NCBI GenBank assembly: GCA_032358255.1
Contig: JAULBX010005331.1
Location: 1 to 64,000 of the forward strand
Direction: 5' to 3'
From: Heterotrichella gracilis
Lineage: Eukaryota > Sar > Xanthophyceae > Tribonematales > Xanthonemataceae
Length of the DNA: 64,000 nucleotides
The translations under genes were made by a program, and so were the position numbers. Below the pieces are notes generated by a model. That model was given only the letters and a program-made list of their open reading frames with translations, was not told the origin of the DNA and did no database searches. Below are positions 6,119 through 64,000 of the stretch, in pieces. The stretch's first letter is position 1. Each line of letters starts with the position of its first letter.

Positions 6119-8423
6119 TCAATGCGCTGACCACACCACCGGCACGCCGTCCTCCCGCCACGTGATCCGGCCCTCAACCAGCGCCTTCACAGCCCGGGGG
6201 TACAGCAGGTGCTCCTGAGGAAAAAATGGGGGACGGGGTGAATGGTCATTTTGGAACACCTGGTACTGATGATAGGATATTGTGGTGTTGGAACTGCATG
6301 TGGGCGTAATAGAAGGGGCCATGGGCACGGGACCAGGGGTGTTAATTGACCGTCCCATGTGCGCGCAGCATACACCCTACACACACGTTCCATGCACAGC
6401 CACTAGCACCACCAGTGCCCCAGAACTGAACACCCGCCGGCCCCCTGTCTGACAAACACAGCCCCACATTGCTGAACACCCGACAGACTGCCCCGCACAC
6501 CACCACCCACCCACTCCCACCCCTCACCTGCTCCAGCACCCTCGCCGCCACATGTGCGGGGGTATCCGTGGGATACACAGGCACCACCTGCTGCGCCAAA
6601 ATGGGCCCCGTGTCGTATTCCTCATCCACAAAAGGAAACAAAACCTCCACATACCCCCCCATATATTCAATACAGTCAATCCACCCAGCAGACTCCCCGC
6701 ACACCACCACCACCATTCCACCCCTCACCTGCACCAGCACCCTGGCCGCCACCTGCGCGGGGGTATCTGTGGGGTACACAGGCACCACCTGCTGCGCCAA
6801 AATGGGCCCCGTGTCATATTCCTCGTCCACGAAATGCACGGTGGCCCCCGAGTATCGCGCCCCTGACGCCAACACCGCTGCGTGCACCCGACTCCCGTAG
6901 CACCCCTTGCCGCCGAACGCGGGGAGGAGGGCTGGGTGGATGTTGAGGATGGCGCGCTTGTAGGCTTGGCACAGCTCAGGGGGGATGATCTGCGGGTGGA
7001 GAGGGGGGGTCAAGTGGGTGGGAGAGGGGAGGGAGATGTGGCACGGCTGTAAGGAAAGCATGCTGGGTAAAAAGGGGGGCCCACAAGGGGAGGGAAGAGG
7101 GGCGTGGCGCCTCCTAAAGAATAGCGCAATTGTACGCTAGGTGCATAAATAGCTGCAGCCAAGCTGCATCAAGATTCATGCAGCCCCCACAAGCATACGA
7201 CAACAAACCTAACCAACCCTATTCAAGCCCAGAACCCTTACACCCCAGACCCCACCCGACTCACCCGTAGGTACCCAGCCAGCAGCACATATTGCACGTC
7301 GTGCTCGTCCACTAACTGATGCACCAGCTCCACTGCGCTCAGACCCTCGATGCCCTTCTTCTTTGACCCCGGGTAGACCAGGGTGGGTATGCCGTGGTCC
7401 TGTGCGTATGCCCACCCTCCGCACCCGGGGACGTCGCTGACGCAAGCCTGGTGGGGGGTGGGGGTTTAGGGTTTAGGGTTTAGGGTTTTAGGGTTTCATT
7501 CCCCCACAACAGCATCGCTGACGCGAGCCTGGTGGGGGGTGGGGGATGGGGGTTGGGGGTGTTTGGGGAAGTGGTGGTGCACGCAGCGGTGTGCGCGTTT
7601 ATCGAGTGCGGGCGTGCGGTGTGTGTGAGGGAGTGGGCCGTGGGATGCAAAGTTTGTGAAGGAGAGGGTTGAGGGGTTGAGTGTGCGCAAGGTGGTGAGG
7701 CTGCTATTGTCTCAAGAATAGCTGCACATGCTGCACTGGCATTTTGGCTCGACCAGGAAATAGGGTTTAGGGTGCAGGTACTCAGGAAGCCATGTCGTGC
7801 ATTTCTTGCAATTTTCGAATGTACGTAGGGCACCATTGTATGTCGTGGTGCTATCTGGACTGCAAAGAAGGTCCAGACACAGATTGCCACCTGAAAAAAG
7901 GCTGAGAGGCGACAGTGGCTTCTCATATGCATGCATACACCTAGTTTGGCCCTGCTGATTTTTGCTTCGTCGCACACCACCGATTACAACACTGGCAATG
8001 AACCCCCTTTTTGAATGAATGAACGACTTTGCGGGGCAACGCCCAAAACCTGATAGCTCACGGATGCACGCATGCATGTGTGGAAAGGCTAGTTCACGAG
8101 CGCCGTACCACCACGGATGCGTTCAGCTCCGGTAATTGCCCATGCTTTGCTTGTGTGGCTGCGTGGATGGCTTTGAAGTTCGACCCCCCTCCCGACACAA
8201 ACACAGCCAGCTTGGCTGGAGGCGGAGGGGCGGAGAGCTGTGGTGGCGGTGCGGCGGAGGAGCACCGTAAGGTGCCTGCCGACGGCCGACAGCCCCCTAA
8301 TCGTACACGCATATTGCTGATGGACTTATACGAGCAACCAGAAGCAAGCAAGAGTGCTGCAGGGTATGTGGGGGTTCGCTGCGATGCCACGGATGGTTCA
8401 CTGATGCCAATGGCTTGCATCAC
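6119..8423 (-). CDS. PUR3: Phosphoribosylglycinamide formyltransferase (GART, PurN type), probably plastid-targeted
   Basis: It transfers a formyl group from 10-formyl-tetrahydrofolate to GAR, the third step of purine synthesis. Four exons join in phase: 8109-8423, 7265-7447, 6729-6989 and 6119-6214, giving 284 residues if the upstream ATG is used. Exon 1 has a long Ser/Ala/Pro/Arg leader like a plastid transit peptide (a second ATG begins MRVRLGG), then KLAVFVSGGGSNFKAI, the PurN phosphate-binding start. Exon 2 has SDVPGCGGWAYAQDHGIPT and ends LLAGYLR. Exon 3 carries the catalytic NIHPALLPAFGGKG (Asn and His) and HFVDEEYDTGPILAQ (Asp). Exon 4 has GRITWREDGVPVVWSAH and then TGA. All key residues seem present. 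An extra copy of the exon 3 end lies in intron 3. The start is uncertain between the two ATGs. Confidence 0.93.
6528..6638 (-). repeat. Duplicate of GART exon 3 end inside intron 3
   Basis: This is a near-copy of 6729-6839. It encodes DEEYDTGPILAQQVVPVYPT through ARVLEQ and is followed by the same GTGAGG donor. The reading frame is open and in phase 0. A possible acceptor (GATGAG) precedes it. It may be a decayed echo or an alternative exon that would lengthen the enzyme by about 31 residues. Confidence 0.8.
7440..7545. repeat. Interstitial telomere tract flanked by copies of the exon 2 acceptor
   Basis: The GART exon 2 border with its acceptor (plus-strand GACGCAAGCCTGGTGG) is followed by four TTTAGGG-type units at 7466-7496. 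A second copy of the border sequence follows (7516-7545, GACGCGAGCCTGGTGG). The acceptor region is therefore duplicated around a telomere-like tract. Confidence 0.75.
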
Positions 8424-9077
8424 TGAGGGAGCCGCAACTTCGCCTCTGTATGCTAAGGGCAGTACGTCCTTAAGGAAATAGATGGTTGGTTGGCGTCAGA
8501 CATCAAACGAGTTTGACAGAGACCAAGTTGCGAATGTCTTTGCTATCGGCGGCAGCACCCTCAGTTGTGCCGCGTGTGCGGCCGCCGTCGGGTTTGTCAC
8601 CCGTGGGTTTGTTGCTGTTTGTGAAGCACAGAAAGGCAGGCAAAGGGTGATATGCTGAAACTTGTAAACTGTGTTCATAAAGCATGACTTGTGGTTGTTG
8701 TTTCCTGCACATCCACGTCTGCCGTTGACATTACCGATGCTCCCAGAGATCCTCGCGGCGGGAAACACGCCTGGGAACAACCCCCAAGGTCTGCCCTGAA
8801 AGCAGCGCAGATACAACCTATCTCAGTCTGACTTGGAATACTAGGCAAGCACCAGTGTAATGGTTGACGCTGCTCTGCCGATCTTCTGCTTACACAGCAG
8901 CAGACGCGAAGCTAGTGGGAAACTCAACTTGATGGCAGAACACTGAAAGTTTCTTCCAGTGCTTTCAACGAGGTGGGCACTGGTTGGACGTTGCTAGACA
9001 ACCTACTTCAAAATCCGTTATAACAAGTTGCAATTCGACGTTTCTCACCCCATCGTACCCGTGCAGCATCTGCCCGC
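8424..9077. promoter_or_regulatory. Divergent spacer between GART and the DUF4787-like gene
   Basis: GART is read to the left and the next gene to the right, so both promoters must lie here. I see no clear TATA box or known element. Confidence 0.35.
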
Positions 9078-11242: not shown

Positions 11243-17946
<6,704 letters not shown>

Positions 17947-18562
17947 TGCGGCAAGCTATCCGTCGCGCAGCAGGTCAGGGGTGGTCACTATTGAACACCA
18001 GAAGGAGCAAAGGTGGGCTGCACCGGCCCAAATGACATGCCAAGATGGGCTCGCCACTCAGTTAAATGCAAAAGCTGTCACAACAGTGCAAAGCAAAGCA
18101 GTGGGTGAAGAGCCCAATGAGCTTGATAGGTGTGTGGACAAAGGGTGGTTGAGCTCGTGTCTGCCTGCTATGTGTTTGCCTCGAGAAAGCTTGGTGCTGC
18201 ACCCTGACTAACGTGGAGGCTCTCGGACTTTCTAGTGCCTACTGCTGACGTGGACCGAGCAAACCCGGTCACGTGCTGTTTATGCCCTCGGACCTTCATG
18301 AGCTCTGTCCGGTGTGGAATTTTCCAGCATAGCCACAACTACCACAACTTTTGGCAGTCAAGTGTTGCTGCGAACGAGCGCCATCGCGTTGATTCCCCAC
18401 GCACAACAACGGACGAGAGCCATCTACGCCTGAATCACCTCGCCATAGATCTTGCTGTTGCGCTTGCAGTGTGGTTTGCCCGTCGCAGTATCCGTTAGCT
18501 GCGAGCCTCATACAACAGCGCTAGACCTCCGAAAGTAGACTCTCTTACAGCCTTTTGCAGCT
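17947..18562. promoter_or_regulatory. Bidirectional promoter region, HSP70 and DUF4079
   Basis: Start codons of the two genes lie 616 bp apart and point away from each other. A GAATTTTC at 18317-18324 fits a two-unit heat-shock element (GAAnnTTC), but one short match is weak evidence. No TATA box was assigned. Confidence 0.4.
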
Positions 18563-19898
18563 ATGGCGTCGTTCACTGCCAGCACTAGCACACTACGGCT
18601 GCTATCAGCCCGGCCATCCAGCAGCAGGGTGGTGGCATTCAAGCCCCTGCGGACGGCAAGGACCGTGTGTGTGGCTAGGCCTAGCAAGGCGATGGCCACT
18701 CGGAGTGCACCATCAGTCAGCGAGATCGAGGACCAGCTGAGGTCACTGTTCGTGGCTTCAACCGTCATCGCCGCGCCTTTGATGGGAGACGTCAGCAGCG
18801 CCTTTGCCGGAGAGTATGGCATCCTCACCGGGCGCTCCTTCTCACTCATGCACCCCATCGTCATGGCAACACTCTTTGGAGTGACGTTGTACACGGGCTA
18901 CCAGGGCCTGCAGTGGCGACGTGTGCGCACCCTGCCTGCGGAGATCGCTGGCCTGAAGAAGATGCTGCCAGCAGCGGACGCAGAGGGCGTTAGGCCTCCA
19001 TCAGAGTACGACTCCAAGATCGCCGAGCTCGAGGCGGTGAGTCACCCACCACATGCCATGGTGCTCTTCCCCAGGTGCACCCAACAGAGTCAATGCATTA
19101 TACACGTCATGAGAAGGTCCCCTGTCAAGGTCCCGATATCTATGGAACAGCAGCACTTGTTAGGACACACAGTGCCCACAACACAACAGCGCATGCATAT
19201 CACTGCCAGGTGCACATGTTCCATTGGAGGGTACCTTGACCCACGCCCACCCACGTGCAGGAGAGGAAGTCCATGATCAAGGAGAAGTTCAACGAGAAGC
19301 ACCACCAGCTGGGGTCCATCCTGCTGGGCCTGGGAGTCACCTTCTCCATCTCTGGAGCTGTCAACACCTACTTCCGCACAGGTAACCAGCGTGGGGTGGT
19401 AGAGGGTCCTGCACGCAACACGTGGGAACCACATCCACCCGGACCAGCTTGTCCTTTAAATGCACTGCAACTGACAATCAAAGGTGCTACTGGTTGTGCG
19501 CATCACCCACTTGCGTGGCAAGACCTGGATCGACACCTGCGGGACAAGCCATCTCATTGTCATTTTCCCCAGCCCACATACCAGGCAAGCTGTCCCCAGG
19601 GCCGCACGTATTAGCTGGCGTGGGCATCACCCATTGCTGTTAAACCTTAACTCTTAACCCTAAACCCCTCTTGTGTGCAGGCAAGCTGTTCCCCGGGCCA
19701 CACATGTGGGCCGGCGTGGGCATCACCATCCTGTGGGCCATCGCCGCGTCCATGACTCCCTACATGCAGAAGGGCAACGACACCGCCCGCTCCCTGCACA
19801 TCGCCGCCAACACGCTGGGCCTGGCCCTGTTCGTGTGGCAGATCCCCACCGGCTGGGAGATCGTGGTCAAGGTGCTGGAGTTCACCCAGTTCCCTTGA
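18563..19898 (+). CDS. Plastid DUF4079 membrane protein
   Basis: Three exons, 18563-19036, 19261-19381 and 19681-19898, give 270 residues. The N-terminus (MASFTASTSTLRLLSARPSS) is Ser/Arg/Ala-rich and acid-poor, like a plastid transit peptide. About four membrane segments follow, in exon 1 (LMHPIVMATLFGVTLYTGYQ), exon 2 (GSILLGLGVTFSISGAVNTY) and exon 3 (GVGITILWAIAASMTPYMQ and ANTLGLALFVWQIPTGWEIV). The spacing and the HPI and TGxxFPGPHMWAG elements match DUF4079, a family shared by cyanobacteria and plastid eukaryotes; function not known to me. A coiled, charged loop (ERKSMIKEKFNEKHHQ) separates helices. A thylakoid location is an inference. The TGA is at 19896-19898. Confidence 0.85.
19579..19635 (+). 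repeat. Echo of DUF4079 exon 3 start
   Basis: CAGGCAAGCTGTCCCCAGGG and the following bases copy the acceptor and first 50 bases of exon 3 (19678-19735, CAGGCAAGCTGTTCCCCGGG). The echo contains a stop and sits about 100 bp upstream, before a CCCTAAA tract at 19645-19670. Confidence 0.8.
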
Positions 19899-20057
19899 AC
19901 AGGCGCTGGGATTGAGTGCGGGATGGGGAGATTGTGCGAAGGTGCAGACATTGATGGGAGGTTATGCAGCTTTATTGGAAAGGCGCTAAGCGCAGGCCAA
20001 TGGCCACCCTTTGGTTGCTGCAGCACAGATAGGGAGCACAAACTGGTGGTCTATTTT

Positions 20058-20120
20058 TGTGTAGCTGGGAGGTTGTGGTCGAGGTGCTGGAGTTACCCAG
20101 TTCTCGTGAGCTGGAAGCAT
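20058..20120 (+). repeat. Echo of DUF4079 coding end in the 3' flank
   Basis: AGCTGGGAGGTTGTGGTCGA and what follows repeat 19852-19905 (encoding GWEIVVKVLEFTQF and the region after the stop). The stop position itself reads TCGTGA here. It lies about 200 bp after the true stop. Confidence 0.8.
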
Positions 20121-43695: not shown

Positions 43696-43779
43696 TGATC
43701 ATGCCGATGATCGGCATTCAGATGATTATGTGTAGCGATCAGCCTGGCAATCATAGCCGGTGATGGTGTCCTGATTGGC

Positions 43780-43815
43780 GCGGCGCGAGGCACTTCCTGG
43801 CCTGATGATGATAAT
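43780..43815 (+). repeat. Echo of the WD40-gene stop region in the 3' flank
   Basis: GGCACTTCCTGGCCTGATGA repeats the last codons and stop at 43679-43698 (TGCACTTCCTGGCCTGATGA). Confidence 0.75.
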
Positions 43816-46060
43816 GGACGGGGTTCCTGCTGATACATTCTGAAGGTGATGACTGATAAAGAATATCCTATTGGTCAGTTCGACAATCACAGCTGATGAT
43901 GAGTATCCTGAGGAGTATACAATGGGGGCGACTGCATGCATAAGAAGTAAGTGAAAGCACAACGGGATTTGCATTCGGTTGTACCGAGTGGCGTCCAGGG
44001 TACAAACACATGAAACACCGGTATTTTTTGTGACAACTAGAGGACAAGTATCAGGGCTTTATGTCCACCGCAGTAAGCCTTGTTCAGAGGCTGGGCACTT
44101 TTCAGAGGGTAAGCCTTTGATTTTTATTCCATCTGCCATGTTAGGGTAACAATAGGGTAATGATGCTACTGAAGTCACGCACTGCAGCTGGCCCAGCAAT
44201 TAAAATTTCTGAAGGTTTTATTTGATTGAGATTGAGGTGCGGATTGCATCTCGATCCCAGCTGGCCAGCAGTCGAGGAAGCGCTTTATTATTGGGGCCAT
44301 ATGGTTGCCATGAATTTCCCATTTTCAATGAAAACGTATGCCAGCAGTACAGGATCGTAAACCAAATGCCATTTGATAATTTCCCATCAAGTTTCCAGTG
44401 AGAGCGTATTCAAAAAAGTTATGTGCTTTTAAGGTTTTATTGGCCATGCTGCCAGTGGCGCATGTTCTCCAATATTAAATTAATTCCAATTGAACTGTTT
44501 AGGACTCAGGGTTGCAAGCTGTCAATTTTCCATTCATCCAGCCAAACGGGGCTTCTGGAGTACGATTCAAGCATGCGCGCTATCAAGCTTGCCTCCTACT
44601 TGTTCTCAGGTTGTAGTCAAGCCTTTGGAATTCATCATCTGTTTCTCAGTGTCACTGAGTGTGGAAACGCTTTTCACGAGTGCTCCCATGGCTCATGCAT
44701 GTGCGGGTGTTCTCAGACAGCAAGGCAGCCAGCAGCAAACTGCTTGTTTTCCCTCCTAGCCACTGGGCATTTTGGGGAAGCGCCCAAGAGGATAAGTTAG
44801 TGTGTTTTCTCCCTGTGGAAGTGGCACTGTGACAGCCAGTTTTACCAACCTCCCGGGTTGGAGTTAGTGCAGCTTCCACGTGGTTATAATGTGCAATACA
44901 CGCTGATATCTGGCAAGGTGGCGATGAACTTCAGCCGCTGATGCGCCAAAGGACCATTGAGTAGTGGTAGTGCTGAGTGAGACTGAGTTGGAATTTCCAG
45001 CGTACAGCTCGAGGTTACGAGGTGGCCGTTACATGATCGACGTTCACCTGTCAATCCCCCAGGAGCTGTATTTATATTTCAACGGCACCAATTAATTAAA
45101 TAAACCCTGCAGCCGTGGCAGTTCAATATTATTTTGTTGGATACCCCCTTTGCTGGATACCGTATTTGGAGGAAATGATAGCATGCTTGCAAGAAACCAA
45201 CTTGTAATAAAGACTTAGTCGTGCTCTTTGCGAAGTTGTTGTGCAGACTGCGTCTGATTAATAATATGCTGCAGAGCCCTCAATGAATTTAACGTGGACG
45301 GTGTTGGCAGCTTTCTTTTGTTAGCAGCTGCAGTGTGTGTGCTACACAGCAAAACTGTGTAATGTCACAGTCCATATGCCCCTGTTACCGGGGGGTCAAC
45401 GATGACTCCCGGAGGTTTCGGCCAGAAAGCATTGAAATGAGGCTCTCTACATTTGGGATGAAGCCCAGACAGGTTTAAGTTACAATCCTTGGCACTGTGG
45501 CCCCTGGGGCCATTCAAAACAGTATGCAACAATGAAAAGTTACATCGAAGGAGAGTGTCGAGGCGGATGCTGCCGAGGACAGTCCCCTGTGCATGTGGGC
45601 CTGCTGCCCAAACCCTAAACCCTAAACGGCTGAGGTTGCCGGACCAGGTACCTGGCGCCGGCGTGCAATAAATGTGTGTGGACAGACTCTGTGAACTTGC
45701 AATGACATGCAACTAATGCTACAGCTAGTGGTACATGGAAACCTAAAGACAGCTAACGACATCAAAAGTGTGTGCAAACCCGACCCCTGGCCAAGCACAT
45801 CGCAACAAAACTGTGTATGCACGGAAAACAAAGAGGCACCCATGCCCATGCATGCACCCTACCGACCCTGAAGCAGGCCTTTCCAAGCAGCCAGCTCGCC
45901 ACCCACACCCTACATGGCCACCCACACCCCACAGGGTGGCACGTCCACCAAGCCCTCCCACTGCGCCCCCAAGCCTGCACACTGCTGAGACAGCGCCCCA
46001 TCCAACTTGGTGCAGCACAAACCTCTGGCGCTTGCGTTGGCCCTTGCGCTTGCGCTGCCG
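43816..46060. other. Spacer between WD40 gene and PEX11
   Basis: No gene is recognised. The stretch is AT-richer from 44000 to 45300. One pair of CCCTAAA units lies at 45611-45626. Short ORFs lack motifs. Confidence 0.4.
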
Positions 46061-46063
46061 CTG

Positions 46064-46325
46064 CTGCTACCTGACTGGATTTGACACCGCCAAAGGTACA
46101 GCAGGTAGCCGTTCACGAGATGCGCAATGAACCCCCCAGCAACCCCACGGAGCGCATACGCACCCCCAGTGCTGCAGCGCCTTTGGCAGTTGCCGTGGCG
46201 CTGCTGTTACCTGACTGGATTTGACACCGCAAGGTACGGCAGGTAGCCATTCATGAGGTAATGATCCCCCGGCAACCCCACGAAGCGCACACGCCCCCAC
46301 ACCCAGCAGCAGCGCATCGGCCAGC
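46064..46325 (-). repeat. Two echoes of the PEX11 last exon in the 3' flank
   Basis: Two units of about 130 bp carry GTAGCCGTTCACGAG/GTAGCCATTCATGAGG and CAGCAACCCCACGGAGCGC/CGGCAACCCCACGAAGCGC. They match the inside of the last exon at 46432-46500 (GTAGCAGTTCATGAGG and CAGCAGCCCCACAAAGCGC). Confidence 0.85.
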
Positions 46326-46336
46326 ACCGCATCGCC

Positions 46337-48764
46337 CTAGGCCGTTTTCGCAGTCAGCTTCGGCGCAGGGCACACCTCTGACGCTGGCAGGGGTGCCACT
46401 ACCGCCTTGACGGGCTTTGGCACAGTCGGGTAGAGCAGGTAGCAGTTCATGAGGGAGGCTATGATCCCCAGCAGCCCCACAAAGCGCGGCTTCCATGGCC
46501 GCAGCTGGAGGAGCCCGGTGGCCAGCAGTGCCTGCGGGGTGGGTGGAGATGGAGGTTGGGTGGGTGGGATGGGGGGTGGTGCAAGCATATGACTAGAGGT
46601 TGCAAGGAGAAGGGGGTTGTGCGCATGTGCATGAGGACTAGGGTTGCGTTTAAGCTCTCCAGCCTTAATAACGCGCATATCAGCAGCAGAGCTTACTGAC
46701 CCAACCCTAGTACTGTGTTGCTTGCTGCAGGCGTGACAAGTGGTAAACGTATGCGACAGGGAAACGCGACATGGACAACTGCTTCCAGCATTGAGCGCCG
46801 CTGGTGTACCCAAAGGCTGCAACACATAACCTCATTTGATCGTTCCATTTTGATTTCGCTCAGAACAGGATTGAAACACTGGTCCCGCAGGCAGGAAAGC
46901 TCTTTAAAGGCGCGCCCGTGAAAACCCTTAAACCCTAAACCCTAGGCCCTGAACCCTGGTCCCCGCCTCACCTGCACCACTGCGTGGGTGAGCACAAATG
47001 CGCGCCGGTCTATCTCCGCCTTTGACCTGCGCACCCGCTCCCGCCAGGAGGCGTCGTCCTCATCCGGCCGCTTCTTGGCAGCCTACGGCGGGGCTAGGGT
47101 TTAGCGGATTGTATAGGGTACAGGGTTTAGGGTACTAATTAGGGTCTCAGTCAAACAAGCTTGTGGCGCCAGCTGAGGTTAAACCGCAATGGATGCGTGG
47201 CATTGCTGCGTGTTCCCTGGCACGGGTGGCCAAACCGAATGCATGCAGCAGCAGACAATGTGGCAAACCCTTGACAAGGGCAAGCTATTTGATGCATGCA
47301 GGTCCTTGGCAACACCCACCTGTGCCAGCTCATACAGCTCTGCCAGTGCTGTGCACACTGACGCGCCCAGCCAGCTGTACAGGGAAGTCTTCTGGAACCT
47401 ACAGGAGGGCAAACCGATCAAGGGGCGCGGTGCAGCAACCAGTAGGCATAGGACCAGGTGGGTGATTTGGGGCAGAGCTGCAAGGTCAGGGATACAGTGG
47501 CGAGGACCCAGTATGGTGGTGGGGAATGGGCCGAAGGAGGTGCCTTTGCTGAATGGCCCAGAAAAAAAGCGGTTGCAATAGTATGAGTGCCTTGCAGTGT
47601 ACATTGTGCATATGTTTGGTCCAGGTCTGGCGCGTGGGCGCGTGCGCGCGTGGGCGCGCGCCACAGTGACTCACTTGTCCACCAGGGCCTTGTTTGTCAC
47701 GATGCCGGCTTGGCTGGCCCATACCACATGGTCCGCGCCAAAGTACATGGCGTTCAGGATGGGCTTGAGCTGCAGCAGCGATTAAATTTGGAATTTAAAT
47801 CCACAACTCGCGCACGGCGTAGGGGCACAACCAACAGGTACTACAACAAGCCCCTGAATAGTCACGGCAGTGTATGCTCAAGGCGGCGCGTTTCGTCCAA
47901 GTGCACAGCGTGGTGGAGGGCACACCTTGAGCAGGATTTCTATTGCGATGGGCTTGTTCCCGAACCGTGGGTTGAGCAGCACTGGGGAGACGGCCTCCAG
48001 CGGCTGCAAGTGGAGGGTTGCTGTCAGCGGGGAGTTGGAGCACAACGCATGCATATAGGCAGCTGCTGGCAAACCAACCCAGTGCAACAAGGAAAAAGTG
48101 CTTTGCTGTGCATGACTATCCCCTGTAGTAAACTCAGTTAGCTGGTCCTAAATAGCTGGCCTTGTCTGGCATCAAAGGCGCTGTGTACTAATTTAGCAAT
48201 GGCCCAGTTGCCGCTTCAGGAGCAGTGACACAAACTGCTCTGCCTCCGTTCAGGCTTACTGGGTTTCACCGATGATACACCGGCAGTTCAGAGTTGCTAA
48301 CTTACCCTCAGCACACGGAAGACTTTTCGTGCAGCTGTGACGGAAGCCTGGGCCTTTCGGAGGTTGCCAGGCTCCCCAGCAGAAGCAAACATCAACGCAT
48401 ACTGCAAGGACACAGACACGATTTCACGTCAGCATAAACTTGCTGACAGATTGCTGTATTGGGCTCGAGATACTTTGAACCAAGGAGGTTGGGTGAGGCA
48501 CATCTTGATCTTTTCTAGGAACCCTGTTCAAAACGTCCTTGACAACATTTCTTCTCCTTTTCTTGTTTCGGAACACGTACCTGGATAGCTGCTGTCAACT
48601 TGTCCTTGGCATCTGCTTGCCCCAGAAACTGGTTCAACACCTGCAACCAGCGGCTTGCTTTCAAACTGTCCACGGACGCCATCATTCAAAGGGCAGGTCG
48701 CCAGGCGGAGAGGCGCTCATACCTTGAGGTGGGTTGACGCCCTCTCCGTGACCTGCTTATCCAT
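46337..48764 (-). CDS. PEX11: Peroxisomal membrane protein PEX11
   Basis: PEX11 elongates and divides peroxisomes and sits in their membrane. Eight exons join in phase: 48723-48764, 48581-48640, 48306-48401, 47926-48003, 47675-47769, 47320-47398, 46972-47082 and 46337-46531, giving 251 residues. It starts MDKQVTERASTHLK; exon 2 has VLNQFLGQADAKDKLTAAIQ and exon 3 YALMFASAGEPGNLRKAQAS, the conserved N-terminal amphipathic region. FGADHVVWASQAGI and FQKTSLYSWLGASVCTALAE follow. The last exon holds the C-terminal membrane segment (KPRFVGLLGIIASLMNCYLL). A charged loop (KKRPDEDDASWRERVRRSK) is typical. The length fits the family (about 230-260). The PEX11 sub-type was not assigned. Its 3' flank carries echoes of the last exon. 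Confidence 0.93.
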
Positions 48765-49580: not shown

Positions 49581-51107
49581 ATGGCTTCAATCCAAGGAGC
49601 ACAGTGTTGCCAACCCATCGCAGCAGCATCACCCGTCAGAATTGTGGCCATCGCCACGCCTCGGTCCGCGCGTCGAGTTATAGCGCGGCCCGAGGTTGCC
49701 CTGAGGCCAACCACTCCCACCCAGCAGCTTGCACAACCGAGCTCAACCTCGCAGGCAGACAGCGGCGTGCTGTCGGGCCACCCTGATGCTGTCAAACGGC
49801 GCCTGGAGGCAGAGCAACGGTCCGTGGCTTGGTGCCTGATAGGGCATGGGGTGGTGGTACGGCGCCAGTAGGCTATAAGGTCTACTTTGCTCCTCTTCCA
49901 CGTTGCTGACTGGTTCATTGTCACCTGCAGGCGGCTTGCCAGAGTTGAGGACGCTGAGCTGGAGAGGAGTGGCACGATCCGCTGGTAAGCACTTAGTGGT
50001 TGCACTCACAATGGGGGGCACGCCACTTGGGCAGGATGGATCACGTTTCGGGGGTGGACGCGGGCACAAAAATGCATTAGTACCTAACTAGGGCTAAACA
50101 CCTGGGCAGCTTGTTCCTGTCCTATCTAACCCACATAGCAGTGCCTTGCCCCTTTGGTAGTGTCGGGGGCTGCTTTGTGGCTGCCATCTCGTGTCGGCAG
50201 TGCCTAGGTTGGGTAAAGGAGAAGTAGTTAGGGAGTCCACCGCACCTCACAAGTCTCGGGGGAGGCAGATTGCAGTCACTTTTCTTGCCAGTTTATACTA
50301 TCTACTACGGTGTCTTGGACGCACAGTGTTTGCAGCGGCAAGCTCATGGTTTGCCAACCTAGCACCCTTTGTTGCAAAGCCCAGCACATGCTTGCCCGCT
50401 CAACTATTCACTGTGATAACATGCTTTCCACGCTGGGAGGGCGTGGCCTCAAAGTTTGTGCTAGAATTGTTTTGGTACAAGCCACTGGGCTGTGCAATTC
50501 TGGGGAGCCCCCGTAGCACACAAGTTGGTGTTGGTGTTGAGTAAGCCAAGTTGTGGCCTTTGGACTGGCAAGACCATACCATATAGTTCCTGTTCCACAT
50601 CCATTGGCACTGCTATTCCCTATAAAGGGCTTGCCAGAAGTCTCATCGACCCGACATGCGTTGTGTTTCCAAAGGCTGCCAGATCTGATTGTCCTTGTGT
50701 CACCCCCCTGCAGGTGGCAACGGGGTGAGAAACCCGACAACATGACCCTGGTCAGCAACGCTCAGCAGCTGCTGGAAGCCATGGCCGCAGCCAGGGAAAC
50801 TGGGTCCCTGGTGGTGGTGGATTTCTTCGCCCCCTGGTGCGCCGGCTGCAAGACCCTCTACCCCAAGTTGCGCCAGATCGCCGAGCGCAACCCCGACGTG
50901 GCCTTCATCAAGGTCAACTGCGAGGAGGAGGAGCTGCGGCAGTTTGCCAAGGACTGCGGCATCGTCTCGCTGCCCTTCTTCCACCTGTACCGCGGCGGGG
51001 AGCTGGTGGCCCGCTTCTCAGCCAACATCTCCAGTGTTGCGGTGCTGCGCGCGGAGATAGCCTCCCACAAGGAGTGCACACATGGGAGTGGGTTCCCACA
51101 GGCTTGA
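49581..51107 (+). CDS. Atypical Cys/His-rich thioredoxin (ACHT type), plastid
   Basis: ACHT proteins are plastid thioredoxins that pass oxidising or reducing signals, for example to 2-Cys peroxiredoxin. Three exons join in phase: 49581-49819, 49931-49984 and 50714-51107. I chose MASIQGAQCCQPIAAASPVR as the start because it resembles a transit peptide; an in-frame ATG at 49479 would add 34 residues. After the transit peptide comes SGTIRWWQRGEKPDNM, the ACHT lead-in. The thioredoxin fold follows with VVVDFFAPWCAGCKTLYPKL, an active site of WCAGC instead of the usual WCGPC, then NPDVAFIKVNCEEEEL and the cis-proline region GIVSLPFFHLYRGGE. The last residues (ECTHGSGFPQA) fall in a tandem repeat and are unlike the family end. 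They may be a recent change in the stop position. Confidence 0.85.
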
Positions 51108-51243
51108 GCGCTTGGCGCTTGGTGGCCTGTGGTTGTTCATACACAGCCACGGGGCTTGCACGTGTGGGAGTGGGTTCCCACAGGCCGGAGCCCACTCGGC
51201 GCTTGGTGGCCTGTGGCTGTTCATACACAGCCGCGGGGTTTGC
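51077..51243 (+). repeat. 82-bp tandem repeat across the ACHT stop codon
   Basis: Two units share GGGAGTGGGTTCCCACAGGC, GGCGCTTGGTGGCCTGTGG and GTTCATACACAGCC. The first includes the stop at 51105. By eye they are about 85 percent identical. Confidence 0.85.
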
Positions 51244-53015: not shown

Positions 53016-56000
53016 ATGGCAGCTTCCGATCCAGTGCAGCACGACAGAGGCCATGGCCTGGGCCCCAACTCTTGCGCCGACGGCGGCCAGCCGCGCCGGA
53101 AGCCCTCCTCGTTTCGCCAGTTCTGCGCCGTGCTCAAGAAGAACGCGCTGCTGCAAGTGCGCAGCCGGCGCACGTTTGGGGTCGGGGGGTGGTTGGGGTT
53201 TGTGCTGGAGCTGCTGACCCCAGTTGCCTTTTTCTGCATAATGTGCATCCCCAAGTACTACATCAAGCCCTTCACCAGCCCCCAGCAGACCTTCAGCCAG
53301 ATACCCCTGGAGGAGGAGCGGTGGGGGGTCAAGTACAGAGGTGCGCCCTTGACTCGAAAACCCTACACCATAAACCCTAAACCCAAACCCCTGCCATATA
53401 CCCTTGGAGGAGGAGCGGTGGGGGGTCAAGTACAGAGGTATGCCACGACTCAGAAACCCTAAACCCTAAAACCCTGTCACACACCCATGGAGGAGGAGCG
53501 GTGGGGGGTCAAGTACAAGGGTACGCCACCGCTCAGAAACCCTAAACCCTAAACCCCTGCCACATACCCTTGGAGGAGGAGCGGTGGGGGGTCAAGTGTA
53601 AAGGTGCGCTGCGGCGCAAAAACCCTAAACCCTGAACCACGGCAACCTTGGCCAGGGACCTCTGGAGGAGAAGCGGAGTCAACCACACGTGCGGTGCAAA
53701 AGCCCTACATCCTGACGCACTTACACACTTTTGCCTGCCCTGGACCATCCACACCCTTTGCAAGGGCTTGGCACCTCACCCCCACCACCAAGCACCCCAC
53801 CCCTCCCCACCCAACTCCCTCGCACAGCTACCCACACGAGATGAACTGGGTTGACGTCCAGGAAACCACCCCTCCCCACCACACACACACAGGAACATCT
53901 GTCCCAACCCTGCACTTGCCACAACCACAGCTATGAAAATCGCTGCTGGCTCTCAAATAAGCAATGCCTTACACCAACCATTGCGGCGGGCCAAGTACAT
54001 TTAGCTTGCAAATAAACCAACGGTGGCCGTCCATTGCTTCCCCAGGTCCCGCAGCTGACACCAGCCGCGCGTTCCTGGCATATGCACCATCCACCAACGC
54101 CACCGACGCCATCATGCTGTCCTTCGCCCGCCACGCCGCATGCGCCCCGCAGCGCACCGACCCACCGTCGTCCTTCCCCAGTTTCTTTCGCTTCTTCCAA
54201 CCCCCTGGCGCCCCGCCCGCGTGTGGCCAGTCAAGGGAGGCATGCTATGGCGCACAGGAGTGCTATAGTCATGTGTTGGAGCAGCAGGTGAGGCCACGTG
54301 ATTTGAAATAGAATAATTGGAATAAAGCCGCTGCATGCGAACTGCTCCGCACCAATTAACCTGCGGCTTCAGAAAGCTTTCTCTGGGTGCTACTTTGGCT
54401 CTCTGGTGCAAGTTCCACGTGTGTCCATTTAAGGGAGGCATGCTATGGCGAATAGGCGTGCAATGGTCGTATGGTGGAACAGCAGATGAGGCCGTGCAAA
54501 GAAATAGAAGTTTTGAAATAGAGAATGCTGCATGCAAATGAAAATGTGTGCAAGCGGAAGGAAAGCATCAAGGACTGGTGGGAAAACCCGGCCCTCACCT
54601 CCCATTCTCCCTCCACACAGCTGCTCCCCTTTGACAGCCCTGAGCAGGCAGTCGAGCACGCGCTGAGCCATCCAGGCACCCTCGACGGGGTGATTAAATT
54701 CGACGCCCCTCGGATTGATGGGGGAGTGCCATTCGGCTACAGGCTGCGCATGAACCACAGCTCCACACCCACCAATCGCATGGTGCTGGACGCGTTTGAT
54801 CTGATGCCAGGTGGGGGAAACCCTAGTCGCACCCTAGCAAAACAAATCCCAGCACGCATTTGAGGGGAAGCCCTTGCAATACCCTTGCATGTGTGAGGTC
54901 TTAGAAACCCTGACTTTGACTTTGAATGGACCATTGCAAGGCGTTGTGTGTTTCATCATTATGCACGCACCATGATTGCTCATCTGGCAGCTTTGGAAGC
55001 GCGTTTAACTGCTGCTGCTGACGAAGCTTCTGGTCGTATTTAATTCGTGTTTTTAATCACGTGCCCCTTTGCGTTTCTCCCAGGGGAGGAGTACAAGCAG
55101 TACTGGTTCTTCATCAACCTGCAGCTGCTGATCGACAGCGCCATCATTGCCACATCATCAGGGGTGGATGCGGGGCCAACCAGTCTCCTCCCCTTTGTCA
55201 AACCATTCCCCTGGCCCCAGGTAGGCACATTCCCAAACCCTAAACCCTAAACGTAAGGGGTCTCGTGGCTAGCCAAAACCTCCTACGGGGCGCCACCCTG
55301 CCAGCGTCATGCGGATTTGCTTGCGCAAAATGACCCACATCAATCTGAATAAAAACCATTGTGAGTTTAAATTTTGCCTGCCCAAGTAGACTTTGCTTCA
55401 GTGGGGCAGTGTACAATAATGCTCCCCCATGTCAGCGCCCCTGCCCAGGTGGGGCGTGGTATGTGCGCCAACTGCACCGCAATGGCATCCAATTTCTAGC
55501 TGCTGTGCGCACGTACCAAAGCCTTCCCCACTTCCCGCGCAGGTGGACATTGATCTCCCACCCATACACACCTTCCCCGGTACCCATTTACCAGGGCATT
55601 GATGCGGGCTTTGGCATCGCCACAATGGTGTTAGTTTAGTAAACCAATTTTCCCCATTTTGTTGCGCAGGTGGACATTGATTTGGGTGCCAGCAGCGCAG
55701 CAGTTGTCTTCAACCTGCTGCTGGTGTATGCCTTCCTTGCCCCCACCCGGGGGATGGTGAGCATTATAGTGCGTGAGAGGGAGGGCAGGCTGCGGGAGGG
55801 CATGCGCATACTGGGGCTTAAGGTGAGTGAGGGACCACGAAACCCTGCTCAAAACCCTACAAGAAGCCGTGTAAGGTGAGCATTGTAGTGAAGAAGAGGG
55901 AGGGCAGGCTGTGGGACGGCATACTGGGACTCGGCGTATGGAGAAAAGAATGAAATGCGTCCTTTGCCAATGCCCCCCTCTACAAGGTGAAGGGAAGTGT

Positions 56001-59000: not shown

Positions 59001-62000
59001 TGGTGCTCACCACACACTCCATGGAAGAGGCCGACCTGCTGGCTGACTCAATTGCCATCCTGTCACACGGCAAGGTAGGTACCCAACCAAAATGTATTAG
59101 ATTGTATCAGTCAAATACACTGGTATAAAGGTGCATGTGTGTCCACCAAGGACATACCTTATTATTACTTTAACAAAGTGTCTGTTCAGGAATAGTCTGC
59201 AGGGTGTGTTGCCTCTGTTGTTGGTTTTATTCATCTTTTAGGTGTTTTCATGTATTTGTGTTTGTATCCATGTGGCCAGGTGGCGACACGTGGCACGCCC
59301 ATCAAGCTGTAGGCCTTTCCTTATGATTGCAATTGTTATTCATTTTATTTACTTATTCATATTTTTTGTATCCATGTGGCCAGGTGGCGACCCGTGGCAC
59401 ACCCATGGAGCTGAAGGCTGCCTGGGGGGTGGGGTACACGCTGACTGCAGTCAAGGCAGCGGGGAGGGCAGGAGAAGGTGCGTTGACAAGGGTCTAGGGC
59501 CTAGGATTCAGGGTTTACGGTTGGCGTCTGCAGCAGGGAGGCAGGAGAAGGTGCCTGGGAAAGGGACCCTGCCTCATGTGTCCTCCTGTTGTCCTGAAAT
59601 TGGGCAATAGACTATGGTTGTTTCGGTTGGGTACAGTGGGTGGAATCAGTTCGTCAGGATTGATTCCCGATACATCTGCGTGCATGGGGAGCTTGGCCTG
59701 GCTGCACTGTGTTGTATGTGGCACTGACGCGCTGTTTCGTGTGTGGCACTGACGCACTGTTTCGTGTGTGGCAGGCCTTGACAATGAGCTGGCTGACCTG
59801 GCTGCACTGTATTGGATTGTCTGTGGCACTGACTGGCTGTTTCGTGTGTGGCTGACGCGCTGTTTCCTGTGTGGCAGGCCTGGACGAGGAGCTGGTTGAC
59901 CTGGCCGCCCGCCACGTGCAGGGGGCGCAATTAGTGAGCAGCGGAGGGGGGGAAATCTCCGTGCGCCTGCCCAGGGACCAGGTGGCAAATTTCCCTCCCC
60001 TGCTACGCCAACTGGAGGAACAAAAGTAGGTGGCTGTGATGGGTGTCATCACGTTTTCCTGAGTGGCAATTGAAGCCTTTCAAATTGATTACATTGGATG
60101 GCCTCACTTGTTATCGCAGTTGGGGCTGGCAACCCGTCTTTGGGGATGGGGATGCTGTGCCTGGTTCTGATGCAACGCTGGCTGCTCATGTGAACAGTTG
60201 TTCCAATAGTGTTGTGTTATTGGACACAGTTCCTGCATTGGGGGAATGTTTGTCACCATTTCTCACCCCTATTTCATTGCAGGCAATCGCTCAAGATAGA
60301 TAGCTACGGGCTGTCAGTCACAACCCTAGAGGAGGTTTTCCTAAAGGTGGCGGAGCAAGGGGGGGACTACATGGCCACGACTGACGGGACGGGGAAGTCA
60401 GGCGGGGGCCAGCGGAGGAGGGAAGGCAGTTCTTCCCCTGAGGTCGAGGAGGTGTCACCCCCCTTGCAGCCCCTGCTCCCTCCTCCAGGGGAGGATGCCA
60501 TCTCTGTGTCGGATGCTGATGGTGGCACAGGTCGGTGCAAAATTGCGTTTCCTGGGGCAACAAACCCTTTTCCGTGGCAATATGCCCTTTTCATCGACAA
60601 AGTGGCGAAGCCTTATGATCTTGCGCTGGAATGTGATGCAACGCCCCTTTCCACGCTCCCATCTCCCGCGCCCTCCTGACACCCCACGCCACCCCATCAA
60701 CGTCCAGGCCTGCCCTCTGGCCTCCCTCTTACCTGGCGCCGCTTGCAAGCCCTGCTCACAGAACGCTACAATCCACCGCCATACTCATGCCATCCAATGC
60801 CAATTGGTCAAATATAAATGCATATCGACAATTTTCACAGTGGTCCAACGTTCCCATTGCAATAACCCATGTCCATCCAAAACCCAATGAATTGTACAGG
60901 ACATGTCCACCAACCTCCAGCTGGTGTTCGTTTCTAGGTCTGCTATCTGGCCTCTCGCTCACCTGGCGCCGCTTCCAAGCCCTGCTCACAAATGGTCACA
61001 ATTTATTACAATAGTCCATGTCAATGCAAAGAAGGAAAGAAATAACCAAAACAGCCTCACACACGGCCCCAAACCTAAATTAAAATCTGCATTTCCAAAT
61101 TTCCAGGTCTGCTATCTGGCCTCCCGCTCACCTGGCGCCGCTTCCAAGCCCTGCTCACCAAGAGAGCCACGGCCGCCTCCCGCGACAGGCTGGCTGCACT
61201 GACTCAGCTGTGCGTGCCGCTGGTGGTGGTGGCGCTGGCGCTGTGGGCGGGGCGGCAGGGGGAGGATATGGAGCAGGAGCCGGCGCTGGGTATGGACAGG
61301 TGGGGGCAACCACTTGGTGCTGGGGGTACCTGGGATTGTGGTGATCAACAACAACAACATATTTATATATTGCATTTGCCTGGTTTGTTTGTGTGGCCGC
61401 TGTGGGCGGGGCAACATGGGGAGAACTATGAAACAGGAACCCTATGTGTATTTAATCCCTTATTTACCGACCTCGTCCTTTGCTATACAGGTCCACCTGC
61501 TTGGCTGGGCACCCCATGGCATTTGGCGCCACCCCCCCGGCGCGCGCAAATGCCACCGGATTCCAGTCATTGCTGGGGGGCTACGAGCTGGGGTCCTATT
61601 GGGACTCAAATGCCACCGACGTCGTCAAATTCGCCACATTGTGGCCACCCCTCGACCAGACCATAGATGCGCACCTGCTGGCCCATTGGTACAGTCAGCC
61701 CACCTCCTACGATGCACTCTTCATATCGTCCCTACCTGACACACCGGACGTAAGTGCAATTTTCTCTGCGGTTTAGGGTTTAGGTTTGGACATGACGCTG
61801 CACTCTGCTTCATGCCTCATGGTGTCACGCCGTGCATTCGAGGTGACTGTCAAATGAATGCATGATAAATGCATGCTACACAGGTAAGGAAACGTGCAAT
61901 TTCCCCCCATTCCCTTCCCAGCACCTGTTTCAAGGCACAAAGTTCACCACCCTGCAATACATCATGTTCTTGTATATAGCACAGCAAGTACGGAAGCCCG

Positions 62001-64000
62001 GCGCATTCGAATGAATCATAGGCATTTTCTGGGCATTGCATTTTCCCACAATGTAACATTTCCCCCATAATCTAACTGCAAGTCCCTCCTCTGCAGCTTC
62101 GCCATGGCACCACCACCTTCACCCTGCTAGCCAACCAGACCGCCCTGCACGCCCTCCCCGCGGCGCTCAACTCCCTCACCACCGCACTGCTGCGAGCCGC
62201 CACTGGTGATCCTGCAGCCGCCATCACCACCACCAGCCACCCACTGCCGCCGCTGAGCTCGGAGCAGGTGAGTCTTGAGCGCTGAGTGCTGAGTGCTGAG
62301 GCAACGAGGGTCCAGTTTGGGGGGGAGGGGGGCTTGAATAGGCATTGGGGGTTAGGGTGTTGGGTCAGGTTTCTGAGGAGGTGTGGGGGAGGGGAGGAGC
62401 CTGAGTCAGATCCTTAGAAATACCCAGGTAGGGTTGCTGTGGATTGGCCATCCTTAAAAATACCCTAGTAGGGTTACTGTGGATTGGCCATCCTTAAAAA
62501 TACCCTAGTAGGGTTGCTGTGGATTGGCCATCCTTAAAAATATCCTAGTAGGGTTGATGTGGATTGGCCATCCTTAGCATAATTGTGCTCCAAGCACCAA
62601 TTCTGAAGCTGTACAACCTACAACCCATTGTGCGCCATCAGCCCTGAGCACTGCACTGTAAACCTCGTATGCCAACCCTAAATCCTTAAATTCTCATATC
62701 CTAGTCCTGAGCGCTGAACCCTGACCAACCCCCTGCCATTCTTAACAGATCGTCCAGCTGTCAGAGACTGCGTTCGACCTTATGCTAGTCCTGTGCGTGA
62801 CTGTGGCGGTGGCGGTGCTGGGCGCATCCTTTGCGGTGGCCCTGGTCAAGGAGAGGGAGAGTGGTGCCAAGCACGTGCAGCTGGTGTCGGGGGCAGGCCA
62901 GGTGGTCTTCTGGGGGGCCACATATGTGTGGGACCTGGCAAATTTTATGGTGCCCGCGGCAGGTGGGTGGTGGTGGCGGTGGTGGTGGGGACGGTGGTGG
63001 GGGTGGTGGCGGTAGTGGTGGTGGTGGTGGTGATTCAAAAGAGGGAGAGCGGTGCCAAGCATGTGCAGCTGGTGTCGGGGGCAGGCCAGGTGGTGTTCTG
63101 GGGGGCGACCTATGTGTGGGACCTGGCGAATTTCATGGTGCCCGCGGCAGGTGGGTGGTGGTGGTGGTGGTGGTGGTGGTGGTAATGGTGGTGGTGTTGT
63201 GGTGTGGGGGGGGAGGGGGGGGTATTTTTTTTTTTATAGGAGTGGGAGTGCGATACCAAGCACGTGCTGCTGGGTATGTGCGTATCATGGGCCCTGGATA
63301 ACCACCATCTGCCGCATTTACAGTGAACTCATCAATCCTTGAAAGGGACAAGGCGCACCCAGCAATGCTGACCTGGCTGTATGGCTGAGATGCAAGCTCC
63401 CACCCTGGCTGTCCCTGTTCCTCGTGGTTAATGGTTTGGCATGTATTCACGCATGCTGCCACACTCCCCTGCAGGTTTCCTGCTCCTGTTTTGGCTCTTC
63501 CACATGCCGCAGTTCCTGGGAGAAAGGATGGCGGCCCTGGCTGTGACGCTGGCAGCATACGGAGTGGCTTGCCTGCCCCTCACGTATGTCCTGCATTTCT
63601 ACTTCTCGGTAAGTAAACTGTAGATTTTGTAACTGTAATTAATATCGGATAGCGCCAAAAAACAATGAGCAGATGGATGCTGGGAACACCTTTGACTGAG
63701 CTGTCACTGTGATCATAAGTGGAGCTTTTGTCAGCACTCCTGCATATCTTGCATTTGTTGGGTAATTTTACGGCCGAGGGCACATTCCCCTCCATAAGAT
63801 GCGCGCCGTCAACCTGTATTCATGTTTGGTTACCTGCTAAGGGCGCATTACCTGCCCTCCTGCAGGACGAGATGCGCGCCCTGCAGGCCCTCAACACCCT
63901 GTATTTCATGACCGGCTACCTCGGCTTCCTGGCCACCTTCATTTTGGACCTGGTGTGGCAAATGCTGGGCAAGCAGGGGGCCAAAAAGGCCTCCCACATC
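53016..64000 (+). CDS. ABCA-family full transporter (partial, runs off the window)
   Basis: ABCA proteins move lipids or sterols across membranes. I traced 21 exons in phase from ATG 53016, including 53016-53340, 54046-54287, 54621-54810, 55084-55220, 55670-55822, 56230-56474, 56832-57078, 57243-57342, 57597-57785, 58041-58256, 58587-58731, 58957-59074, 59384-59477, 59878-60025, 60283-60530, 61107-61299, 61491-61749, 62097-62267, 62749-62962, 63475-63608 and 63866-64000. The first helix is [20 protein letters not shown], followed by a large Cys-containing loop. NBD1 shows Walker [11 protein letters not shown]-loop [12 protein letters not shown], signature [10 protein letters not shown], Walker [14 protein letters not shown] and H-loop [26 protein letters not shown] is the ABCA regulatory stretch. 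The second membrane half starts at 61107; the second NBD is beyond 64000. No breaks were seen. Confidence 0.93.
53300..53612 (+). repeat. Four copies of ABCA exon 1 end and donor
   Basis: GGAGGAGGAGCGGTGGGGGG, then TCAAGTACAGAGGT or a variant, occurs at 53309 (real), 53405, 53488 and 53573. CCCTAAA-type spacers of about 40 bp separate the copies. The unit is about 85-95 bp and the copies are almost identical. Confidence 0.95.
55535..55562 (+). repeat. Echo of ABCA exon 5 start
   Basis: GCGCAGGTGGACATTGATCT matches the acceptor and exon 5 start at 55664 (GCGCAGGTGGACATTGATTT), 127 bp upstream. Confidence 0.85.
55874..55945 (+). repeat. Echo of ABCA exon 5 end
   Basis: GTGAGCATTGTAGTGAAGAA to GGCATACTGGGACT resembles 55756-55818 (GTGAGCATTATAGTGCGTGA). 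It lies just past the donor. Confidence 0.8.
56600..56775 (+). repeat. Two echoes of ABCA exon 7 interior
   Basis: CACCTCCCTCTTCATGCACG (56611) and CATCTCCCTCTTCGCGCATG (56728) resemble CATCTCCCTCTTTGCGCACG of exon 7 (56902). Each continues into TGCTGGT. They lie upstream of the acceptor. Confidence 0.75.
59265..59315 (+). repeat. Echo of ABCA exon 13 start
   Basis: GGCCAGGTGGCGACACGTGG copies the acceptor and start of exon 13 at 59379 (GGCCAGGTGGCGACCCGTGG). The echo reaches a stop soon after. Confidence 0.85.
59688..59885 (+). repeat. Tandem repeats before ABCA exon 14
   Basis: Units of about 30 bp with GACGCGCTGTTTCGTGTGTG recur. One carries GGCAGGCCTTGACAATGAGC (59771), an echo of the exon 14 start (GGCAGGCCTGGACGAGGAGC, 59873). 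Confidence 0.8.
60700..61003 (+). repeat. Two echoes of ABCA exon 16 start
   Basis: The acceptor and start of exon 16 (TCACCTGGCGCCGCTTCCAA, near 61127) recur near 60728 (TTACCTGGCGCCGCTTGCAA) and 60959 (identical). Each ends in GCCCTGCTCAC, and each has its own AG (CCAG and CTAG) in front. Confidence 0.9.
62404..62580. repeat. 50-bp tandem repeat in an ABCA intron
   Basis: About three and a half units carry GTAGGGTTGCTGTGGATTGG and then CCATCCTTAAAAATACCCTA. They are nearly identical. No coding match was seen. Confidence 0.9.
62962..63290 (+). repeat. Echoes of ABCA exon 19 end, with GGT microsatellites
   Basis: The stretch 63038-63170 copies 62853-62972 almost perfectly (encoding [20 protein letters not shown] through NFMVPAA) with the same donor. 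A short third copy is at 63240-63275 (GATACCAAGCACGTGCTGCT). (GGT)n runs at 62965-63030 and 63150-63205 separate them. Confidence 0.9.

Follow-up and report, generated by a model that had tools for sequence, protein, structure and literature searches.

We analyzed a 64-kb window of the xanthophycean alga Heterotrichella gracilis in which short pieces of exon sequence recur close by on the same strand, often with TTTAGGG-type telomeric units between the copies. The window makes up the first 64 kb of contig C55 (129 kb; GenBank JAULBX010005331.1), which belongs to an assembly of 68.5 Mb and 903 contigs; we refer to the local copies of exon sequence as echoes. Schiml et al. (2016) reportedly described tandem duplications in plants following adjacent nicks. 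Published work describes further systems of this kind. In mammalian cells, fill-in at 3′ overhangs by CST-guided Pol alpha-primase, which also fills telomere ends, gives rise to small tandem duplications (PMC8355091). Telomeric insertion at double-strand breaks is known from rodents, primates and the horse, and a minority of the insertions are accompanied by duplication of the target (4.6% in rodents to 16% in primates); human interstitial telomeric sequences are absent from exons, and their share in introns fits random insertion (PMC2246262, PMC7215372). Plant telo boxes occur at 155 per Mb in Arabidopsis (150.7 in introns) and are not enriched in the introns of Arabidopsis or rice; telomerase action on free 3′ ends at transcribed sites has been proposed for them (PMC3022908). 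New introns of Daphnia carry direct exon-adjacent repeats of 4-12 bp, which are attributed to staggered breaks and mark intron birth (PMC4202315).

Local same-strand copies of exon sequence are genuine in this alga and recur across the sampled genome. Unless another extent is given, statistics refer to a 294-kb sample comprising the window, 20 further loci and five adjoining pieces, less two loci (L003 and L022; G+C 0.33 and 0.40) that probably do not belong to the algal nuclear genome. An ungapped diagonal scan for direct repeats within 1 kb returned 366 segments, compared to 0 in one shuffled version, and chaining at a lower segment threshold returned 319 pairs, compared to 2. At equal score and in the same 240 kb, 247 segments were direct and 11 inverted. 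The copies, about 25-110 bp long, are direct, local and short, with few inverted ones among them, as expected of break repair. High-identity pairs (at least 90%, n = 64, offsets up to 300 bp, not made non-redundant) had a median start-to-start offset of 167 bp, and only 12.5% of them were adjacent, the others being separated by filler. Outside modelled genes we observed 40 pairs in 25 clusters, so duplication is present away from selected positions. Elsewhere in the sample, 16 of the 37 genes with at least four confident exons carried at least one echo. An earlier reading of the window from its letters alone (the sequence-only reading) had called the copies local and same-strand, which these counts bear out; its proposal of a repair-type copying process is well supported by the direct-to-inverted ratio, by the filler between most young copies and by the often telomeric nature of that filler.

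Telomeric units were linked to the duplications. We observed them in 22 of 50 noncoding spacers, compared to 9.6 ± 2.7 when stretches were placed at random in introns (300 draws, maximum 19); the presence of telomeric units at the join of duplicated ends is an association in these data. Intron spacers held 106 telomeric bases per kb and introns outside duplications 25; the corresponding intergenic values were 73 and 12. Among 5′ splice sites, an exon-edge echo accompanied 19.6% of the 92 that had a telomeric unit no more than 80 nt away, compared to 3.1% of the 254 that had none; at 3′ splice sites the shares were 20.7% of 58 and 4.3% of 303. Spacing by CCCTAAA/TTTAGGG or GGT tracts, which the sequence-only reading had noted in passing, was seen in the window, and the telomeric spacers are a stronger boundary-linked signal than the copies themselves.

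Gene models combined with the repeat scan put the number of distinct exon-sequence echoes in the window at 43: 16 in the ABCA gene (of 19, the other three lying outside the window), 15 in the WD40 gene, 2 and 3 in the two HSP70 models, 3 in a fused DUF4079/F-box model, 2 in PEX11, and 1 each in ACHT and the gene at 147-2572. At 20 modelled borders the echo aligned over the splice dinucleotide, five of these borders being doubtful or false (13629, 19871, 40028, 40052 and 53320). Five of the 43 echoes lay beyond a stop codon and not at a splice site (one each for DUF4079, WD40 and ACHT, and both for PEX11), the frames ending in stops. PEX11 and ACHT, which the sequence-only reading had taken for splice-boundary cases, are therefore not such cases. 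The presence of echoes in "nearly every multi-exon gene" was overstated, as the repeat scan found no echoes in three multi-exon models of the window (3440-4708, 27156-28457 and 30461-32513). Across the whole sample, echoes of 5′ splice sites lay downstream in 16 of 20 cases and echoes of 3′ splice sites upstream in 13 of 14, a few of the modelled borders being doubtful.

Exons were taken from a purpose-written gene finder trained on the same sample, and predicted exons scoring under 5 were dropped throughout. The learned splice signals resembled genuine ones (donor AG/GTRNGT, acceptor GCAG/G, the slash marking the border). Protein segments of the window models gave eight Pfam matches: Formyl_trans_N (GART), HSP70 (covering 407 profile positions), DUF4079, PEX11, thioredoxin, ABC_tran, WD40 and F-box. 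The best match of the DUF4079 protein (53% identical) was a record labelled Tetstr1, which we take to be Tetraselmis striata, with other green algae and plants next in the list. The gene finder merged DUF4079 with the F-box gene, split HSP70 in two, left the 3′ end of GART ambiguous and predicted false donors close to where the DUF4079 and ACHT genes end; because of such doubtful borders, some crossing counts in the placement tests below rest on unsure ground. The loci, in order of position, were as follows.

3007-3038 and 3074-3105, no strand assigned: intergenic pair, 32 bp, 84% identical; 35-bp spacer, 91% exact telomeric units.
6523-6633 and 6724-6834, minus strand: GART pair, 110 bp, 92% identical, offset 201 bp (67 codons, in frame).
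12270-12360, minus strand: HSP70 donor edge with an intron echo at 12034-12124, 82% identical; CCCTAAA in the spacer.
12717-12952, minus strand: HSP70 donor at 12891 with downstream copies in the region 12717-12860, 96% identical; unit of about 92 bp with CCCTAA.
16557-16597, minus strand: HSP70 exon edge with echoes at 16331-16370 and 16438-16477, 82% identical.
19678-19727, plus strand: acceptor edge of DUF4079 exon 3 with an echo at 19582-19631, 84% identical; the spacer, upstream of the real CAG, holds a telomeric unit.
19852-19882, plus strand: end of a DUF4079 coding exon with a copy at 20064-20094, 90% identical; the copy lies past the stop codon and is not a splice-boundary copy.
34841-35136, plus strand: WD40 gene donor edge at 34886 with echoes at 34963-35028 and 35069-35136; TTTAGGG in between.
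35761-35927, plus strand: WD40 gene donor edge at 35817 with an echo at 35864-35927, 89% identical; 39-bp spacer, 77% telomeric.
37445-37512, plus strand: WD40 gene acceptor edge with an echo at 37247-37316, 92% identical.
39677-40279, plus strand: WD40 gene array of copies of the acceptor edge CAG/GCTGTGGCACATCGG... (unit about 103-117 bp), separated by CCCTAAA tracts; in the gene model the real exon starts at 40236.
40756-40836, plus strand: WD40 gene donor edge with an echo at 40945-41025, 96% identical (the sequence-only reading had called the copy at 40950-41025 identical).
42304-42334, plus strand: WD40 gene acceptor edge with an echo at 42130-42160, 97% identical.
42959-43026, plus strand: WD40 gene acceptor edge with an echo at 42763-42830, 93% identical.
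43773-43812: WD40 gene copy past the stop codon; the reading frame ends in a stop.
46050-46487, minus strand: PEX11 last-exon coding sequence (46408-46487) with copies past the stop codon at 46095-46155 and 46212-46288.
51065-51243, plus strand: 3′ end of the ACHT/thioredoxin coding sequence with a copy past the stop codon at 51147-51243, 86% identical.
53296-53676, plus strand: ABCA donor edge of doubtful placement (53320 or about 53340) with four echoes after it; CCCTAAA spacing, unit of about 83 bp.
59365-59418, plus strand: ABCA acceptor edge with an echo at 59261-59314, 91% identical.
61100-61161, plus strand: ABCA acceptor edge with upstream echoes at 60703-60759 and 60931-60992, 90-95% identical.
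62852-62960 and 63040-63148, plus strand: ABCA copies of 109 bp, 94% identical, with (GGT)n between; partial third copy at 63241-63273.
L006:4478-4570, outside the window: near-pure telomeric join.

The intergenic telomeric join at 3007-3105 shows that duplication of this sort also occurs away from exon edges. Both GART copies carry a CAG/GTGAGG donor, and the GART model reads an open frame through the spacer (6523-6834); given the in-frame offset and the open spacer, a translatable product is possible from either donor. Protein repeats (WD40, LRR) were rejected as the cause of the echoes, as pairs exonic on both sides were set aside and the remaining echoes lay outside modelled exons. Other repeats were seen in and beside the window. 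An ABCA intron holds a minisatellite at 62410-62576 (about four 40-bp copies, 94% alike, with CCCTAGTAGGG in the unit). In the minus-strand gene model at 147-2572, seven short exons with flanking intron are diverged copies of each other, their starts 130-400 bp apart; window 1-2700, which holds this gene of repeated exon-intron units, was left out of the placement, echo-at-splice-site and border-probe tests. A perfect inverted repeat (19-bp arms, 9-base loop; CAACAGGCAGCCCTTGCAC ... GTGCAAGGGCTGCCTGTTG) lies at 5367-5413. Just past the window, a protein-kinase gene at C55:73526-73690 (L023) holds 62-bp copies, 95% identical, with a mostly telomeric spacer. The 61-nt intron modelled there, flanked by duplicated exon pieces that each read VELLSSCR[HY]PHIVQ, is a candidate new mini-intron. 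It may be a case of intron gain by duplication, with splice sites in both copies; the crossing class defined below allows exon contact in one copy only.

The best explanation of these data, which we hold with moderate confidence, combines staggered breaks, fill-in and end joining, often with telomeric filler, and subsequent selection. A staggered double-strand break at a locus would leave two overhangs; filling in both would duplicate the overhang segment, and end joining would seal the ends. TTTAGGG-type units would often be added to the exposed ends before sealing, yielding the order copy, filler, copy. Selection would then sort the products. A duplication inside an exon would usually break the reading frame. 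One straddling a border would do no harm if splicing relied on the site lying farthest from the centre of the intron and removed the extra copy, and one straddling a stop codon would leave the extra copy in the 3′ flank. Survivors sorted in this way would appear as exon-edge echoes located within introns or beyond stops. The least certain step is a possible preference of breaks, or of telomeric additions, for exon-intron junctions. The copies, their direct orientation and the telomeric spacers with the associated statistics are observed; from them we infer the break, the fill-in and the involvement of telomerase.

Several points weigh against this sequence of events. The break and the order of events are deduced from present-day copies. 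In the 81 spacer-bearing pairs (offsets up to 300 bp), telomeric units were confined to the spacer in 19 and to the flanks in 4, a contrast that favours the explanation; they occupied both positions in 20 and were absent in 38. No exact telomeric unit was thus present in 42 of 81 spacers, and of the 39 pairs whose spacer is telomeric, 20 also had a tract outside a copy, so in those cases the tract may predate the duplication. Beside 174 tracts we found no shared non-telomeric flank, such as telomerase-RNA sequence; the words there were only telomere-like and G-rich, with no common non-telomeric 6-mer. In crossing pairs, exonic and intronic parts were equally diverged (0.867 and 0.860), whereas constraint on one side predicts a difference; the scan trims diverged ends and so may mask one.

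Survivorship could account for the exon-edge pattern without any targeting: duplications, telomeric or not, would fall at random, and purifying selection together with slower decay of the coding copy would leave the echoes where they are seen. We consider this a serious possibility, although one that we lean against as the full account. For a duplication that overlaps an exon to be tolerated, its extra copy and filler must both fall in noncoding sequence, and the survivors therefore span either a splice border or a stop. The placement tests set aside pairs spanning an exon as well as those exonic on both sides, and admitted offsets up to 600 bp. Crossing, exon-to-noncoding and intron-only pairs had observed shares of 0.331, 0.313 and 0.356, compared to 0.283, 0.347 and 0.370 under a filter-only null (n = 163). 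These shares match the null, and on that count there is no excess needing explanation. The sequence-only reading had held that coding constraint cannot by itself explain intron sequence in the copies; this was largely wrong, as the filter predicts 28% crossing pairs and 33% were observed. Copies past stop codons obey the same rule without a splice site. These data show that much of the exon-edge association is survivorship, extra copies being tolerated only outside coding sequence.

An excess at borders was nonetheless detected in the whole sample. With each region counted once, we observed 32 crossing pairs compared to 23.4 ± 3.7 expected (P = 0.013). In the window alone the difference was not significant (13 compared to 9.7 ± 2.3, P = 0.12), which makes the outcome of the check proposed with the sequence-only reading mixed. 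We also slid a 40-nt probe over each border and sought its echo on the intron side, with controls 40-120 nt within introns. Border echoes were found in 21 of 439 cases and intron-interior echoes in 14 of 920 (odds ratio 3.25, P = 6e-4); outside the window's contig the counts were 10 of 289 and 6 of 617 (P = 0.011), and among copies at least 90% identical 12 of 439 and 7 of 920 (P = 0.005). In a stricter test from which eight doubtful window borders were removed, odds ratios were 3.75-4.70 at four exon-score thresholds (P from 0.0002 to 0.0013; for example, 19 of 370 compared to 10 of 772, P = 0.0002). Slower decay of the coding copy could give borders up to a twofold advantage, which predicts about 13 border echoes where 21 were seen and about 10 where 19 were seen. 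The excess in the whole sample, in young copies and with strong exons argues against survivorship as the sole cause. So do the telomeric tracts, which are unconstrained and cluster within 60 nt of 5′ splice sites, also outside the window's contig (35 compared to 21.5 ± 4.1).

These data suggest, but do not establish, a border preference beyond selection, and targeting of splice sites is unproven. The residual border excess and the crowding of telomeric units into the 60 nt or so next to splice sites are consistent with junctions being favoured. A stronger version would make junctions the preferred sites of breakage and telomerase-assisted repair, each event depositing both a telomeric tract and an exon-edge copy, with introns growing from their ends and new mini-introns occasionally arising between duplicated exon pieces; we regard this version as tentative and rather doubtful.

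Telomeric units were abundant in introns, and short internal stretches exceeded the expectation from composition: the AAACCCT cyclic class had 962 intron hits, compared to 61-140 for 19 other classes of equal composition. The plant telo-box 8-mer, counted in both orientations, had an overall density of about 932 per Mb (introns 1754, intergenic 634, exons 95), and within introns its density was 2371 per Mb in the outer 60 nt and 1102 in the interior. A telomeric motif lay in the first 80 nt of 80 of 305 introns and in the last 80 nt of 57 of 305. In the intron-edge tests, which covered introns of 160 nt or more, the 5′ 60 nt held 63 telomeric blocks compared to 35.3 ± 5.2 under uniform placement. 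This effect was present in all three intron length classes (16 compared to 10.7, 23 compared to 12.5, and 24 compared to 12.4) and with stricter exons (47 compared to 25.5 ± 4.6; 36 compared to 19.3 ± 4.1). Genome-wide, a donor motif was followed by AAACCCTA 598 times at 4-34 nt and 383 times at 124-154 nt, and by TAGGGTTT 1160 and 419 times; AAACCCTA lay on the exon side of the donor 190 times, and reversed patterns gave 15-24. These counts are matches, a donor with several telomeric units being counted repeatedly. A boundary-linked telomeric component at 5′ splice sites is statistically strong. Near gene starts and stops in the sample gene models, telomeric enrichment followed no clear trend. 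Donor-plus-telomere sites also stood in tandem about 50-195 bp apart on other contigs, among the matches listed (C15:16492/16596, C23:71227/71422 and C41:138032/138143), so echo arrays exist there too. (GGT)n tracts clustered at intron 5′ ends (27 compared to 10.4 expected) and (ACC)n tracts at 3′ ends (16 compared to 8.3), having perhaps grown out of splice signals. The palindromic TGCATGC/CATGCAT ranked with the most frequent 7-mers of introns and showed a mild enrichment at their 5′ ends (24 compared to 15.8).

Such tracts could be the cause and not the product of the duplications, if pre-existing G-rich tracts near intron ends stalled replication or paired and so duplicated their neighbourhood. 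The 20 of 39 telomere-containing spacers with tracts also outside a copy fit this, as do 5′-edge tracts in introns with no detected duplication (C-rich 21 compared to 12.0; G-rich 22 compared to 9.5). However, the other 19 of 39 have tracts inside the spacer only, and the telomeric joins at 3007-3105 and C55:73526-73690 have no tract within 30 bp outside. We judge a causal role of the tracts unlikely.

A functional role in splicing, with telomeric tracts and echo splice sites kept as aids to splice-site recognition, appears improbable. Near 3′ splice sites, C-rich telomeric blocks in the sense strand were enriched (33 compared to 20.3) and G-rich blocks depleted (8 compared to 16.5), which would fit such a role. 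At 5′ splice sites both orientations were enriched (35 compared to 20.3 and 31 compared to 16.4), which argues against such a role. The 3′ bias is also expected if G-rich tracts that create TAG/G were purged, and it would fit such purging, with TTTAG/GG as a potential false acceptor. It was not reproduced in a genome-wide TGCAGG test of 3′ splice sites (C-rich near 2468, far 1550; G-rich near 1979), a test that was uninformative, probably because TGCAGG is not acceptor-specific. The splice dinucleotide was intact in 45 of 49 echoes, which would fit a role in splicing, but this is not far from the 83% or so that overall identity predicts, and retention is inflated because local alignments end in matches. 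Dinucleotide retention in these 49 echoes gave no indication of use or protection of the echo sites.

A mobile introner-like element or a transposon with telomeric ends would fit the telomeric motifs common to many introns, but is very improbable: each copy repeats exon or intron sequence of its own locus, the one window piece of 201 bp that was compared with the whole genome had no match other than itself and its neighbour, and the tracts share no non-telomeric 6-mer beside them. An assembly artefact, conceivable in an assembly that is fragmented and seems to include bacterial contigs, is extremely improbable, as many copies are diverged and the pattern recurs across sampled contigs and in the genome-wide pattern counts. 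Contigs C1 (G+C 33%; L003), C83, C111, C145, C331, C442 and others carry single-frame ABC-transporter domains, which suggest that they are bacterial.

If telomeric filler marks repaired breaks at splice junctions, this genome would be a dense natural record of such events, and the record could be used to test preferential breakage at transcribed exon-intron junctions and the lengthening and origin of introns. If junctions are indeed preferentially broken, telomere maintenance machinery would be an ongoing force in intron evolution. On the ordinary reading, the window is a clear case of a selection filter making random duplications seem targeted. Gene annotation should in addition take warning that decoy exon edges are plentiful.

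Compared with the systems described above, the duplications resemble those of CST-Pol alpha-primase in being short, direct, local and probably due to staggered breaks, with a fill-in machinery shared with telomeres. They differ in that filler, often telomeric, lies between most young copies, that survivors lie outside coding sequence and that they are known from sequence alone. Like the insertions of rodents, primates and the horse, some of which have random filler or target duplication, the algal tracts are short internal telomeric stretches; unlike them, they are tied to duplications and intron ends. The telo boxes of Arabidopsis and rice share the unit AAACCCTA with this alga, in which, unlike Arabidopsis, the density is about 932 per Mb (both orientations; the strand treatment in that paper may differ) and intron ends are where the boxes concentrate. 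As in the new introns of Daphnia, direct repeats of exon-edge sequence are linked to introns, but the algal copies measure about 25-110 bp and lie in introns mostly not shown to be new, and the string "telomer" occurs 0 times in the available text of PMC4202315. Intron gain by tandem duplication likewise duplicates splice-site sequence; there the duplicate becomes the intron, whereas here it usually lies inside an intron on one side. The combination of exon-edge copies with telomeric filler was not found in the literature searched, which consisted of titles and the starts of abstracts, with subscription journals mostly outside the search. Overall, our data suggest that the pattern is largely explained by known repair processes and a selection filter, and that it connects the growth of introns with two things usually considered apart from it and from each other, small tandem duplications and interstitial telomeric repeats.

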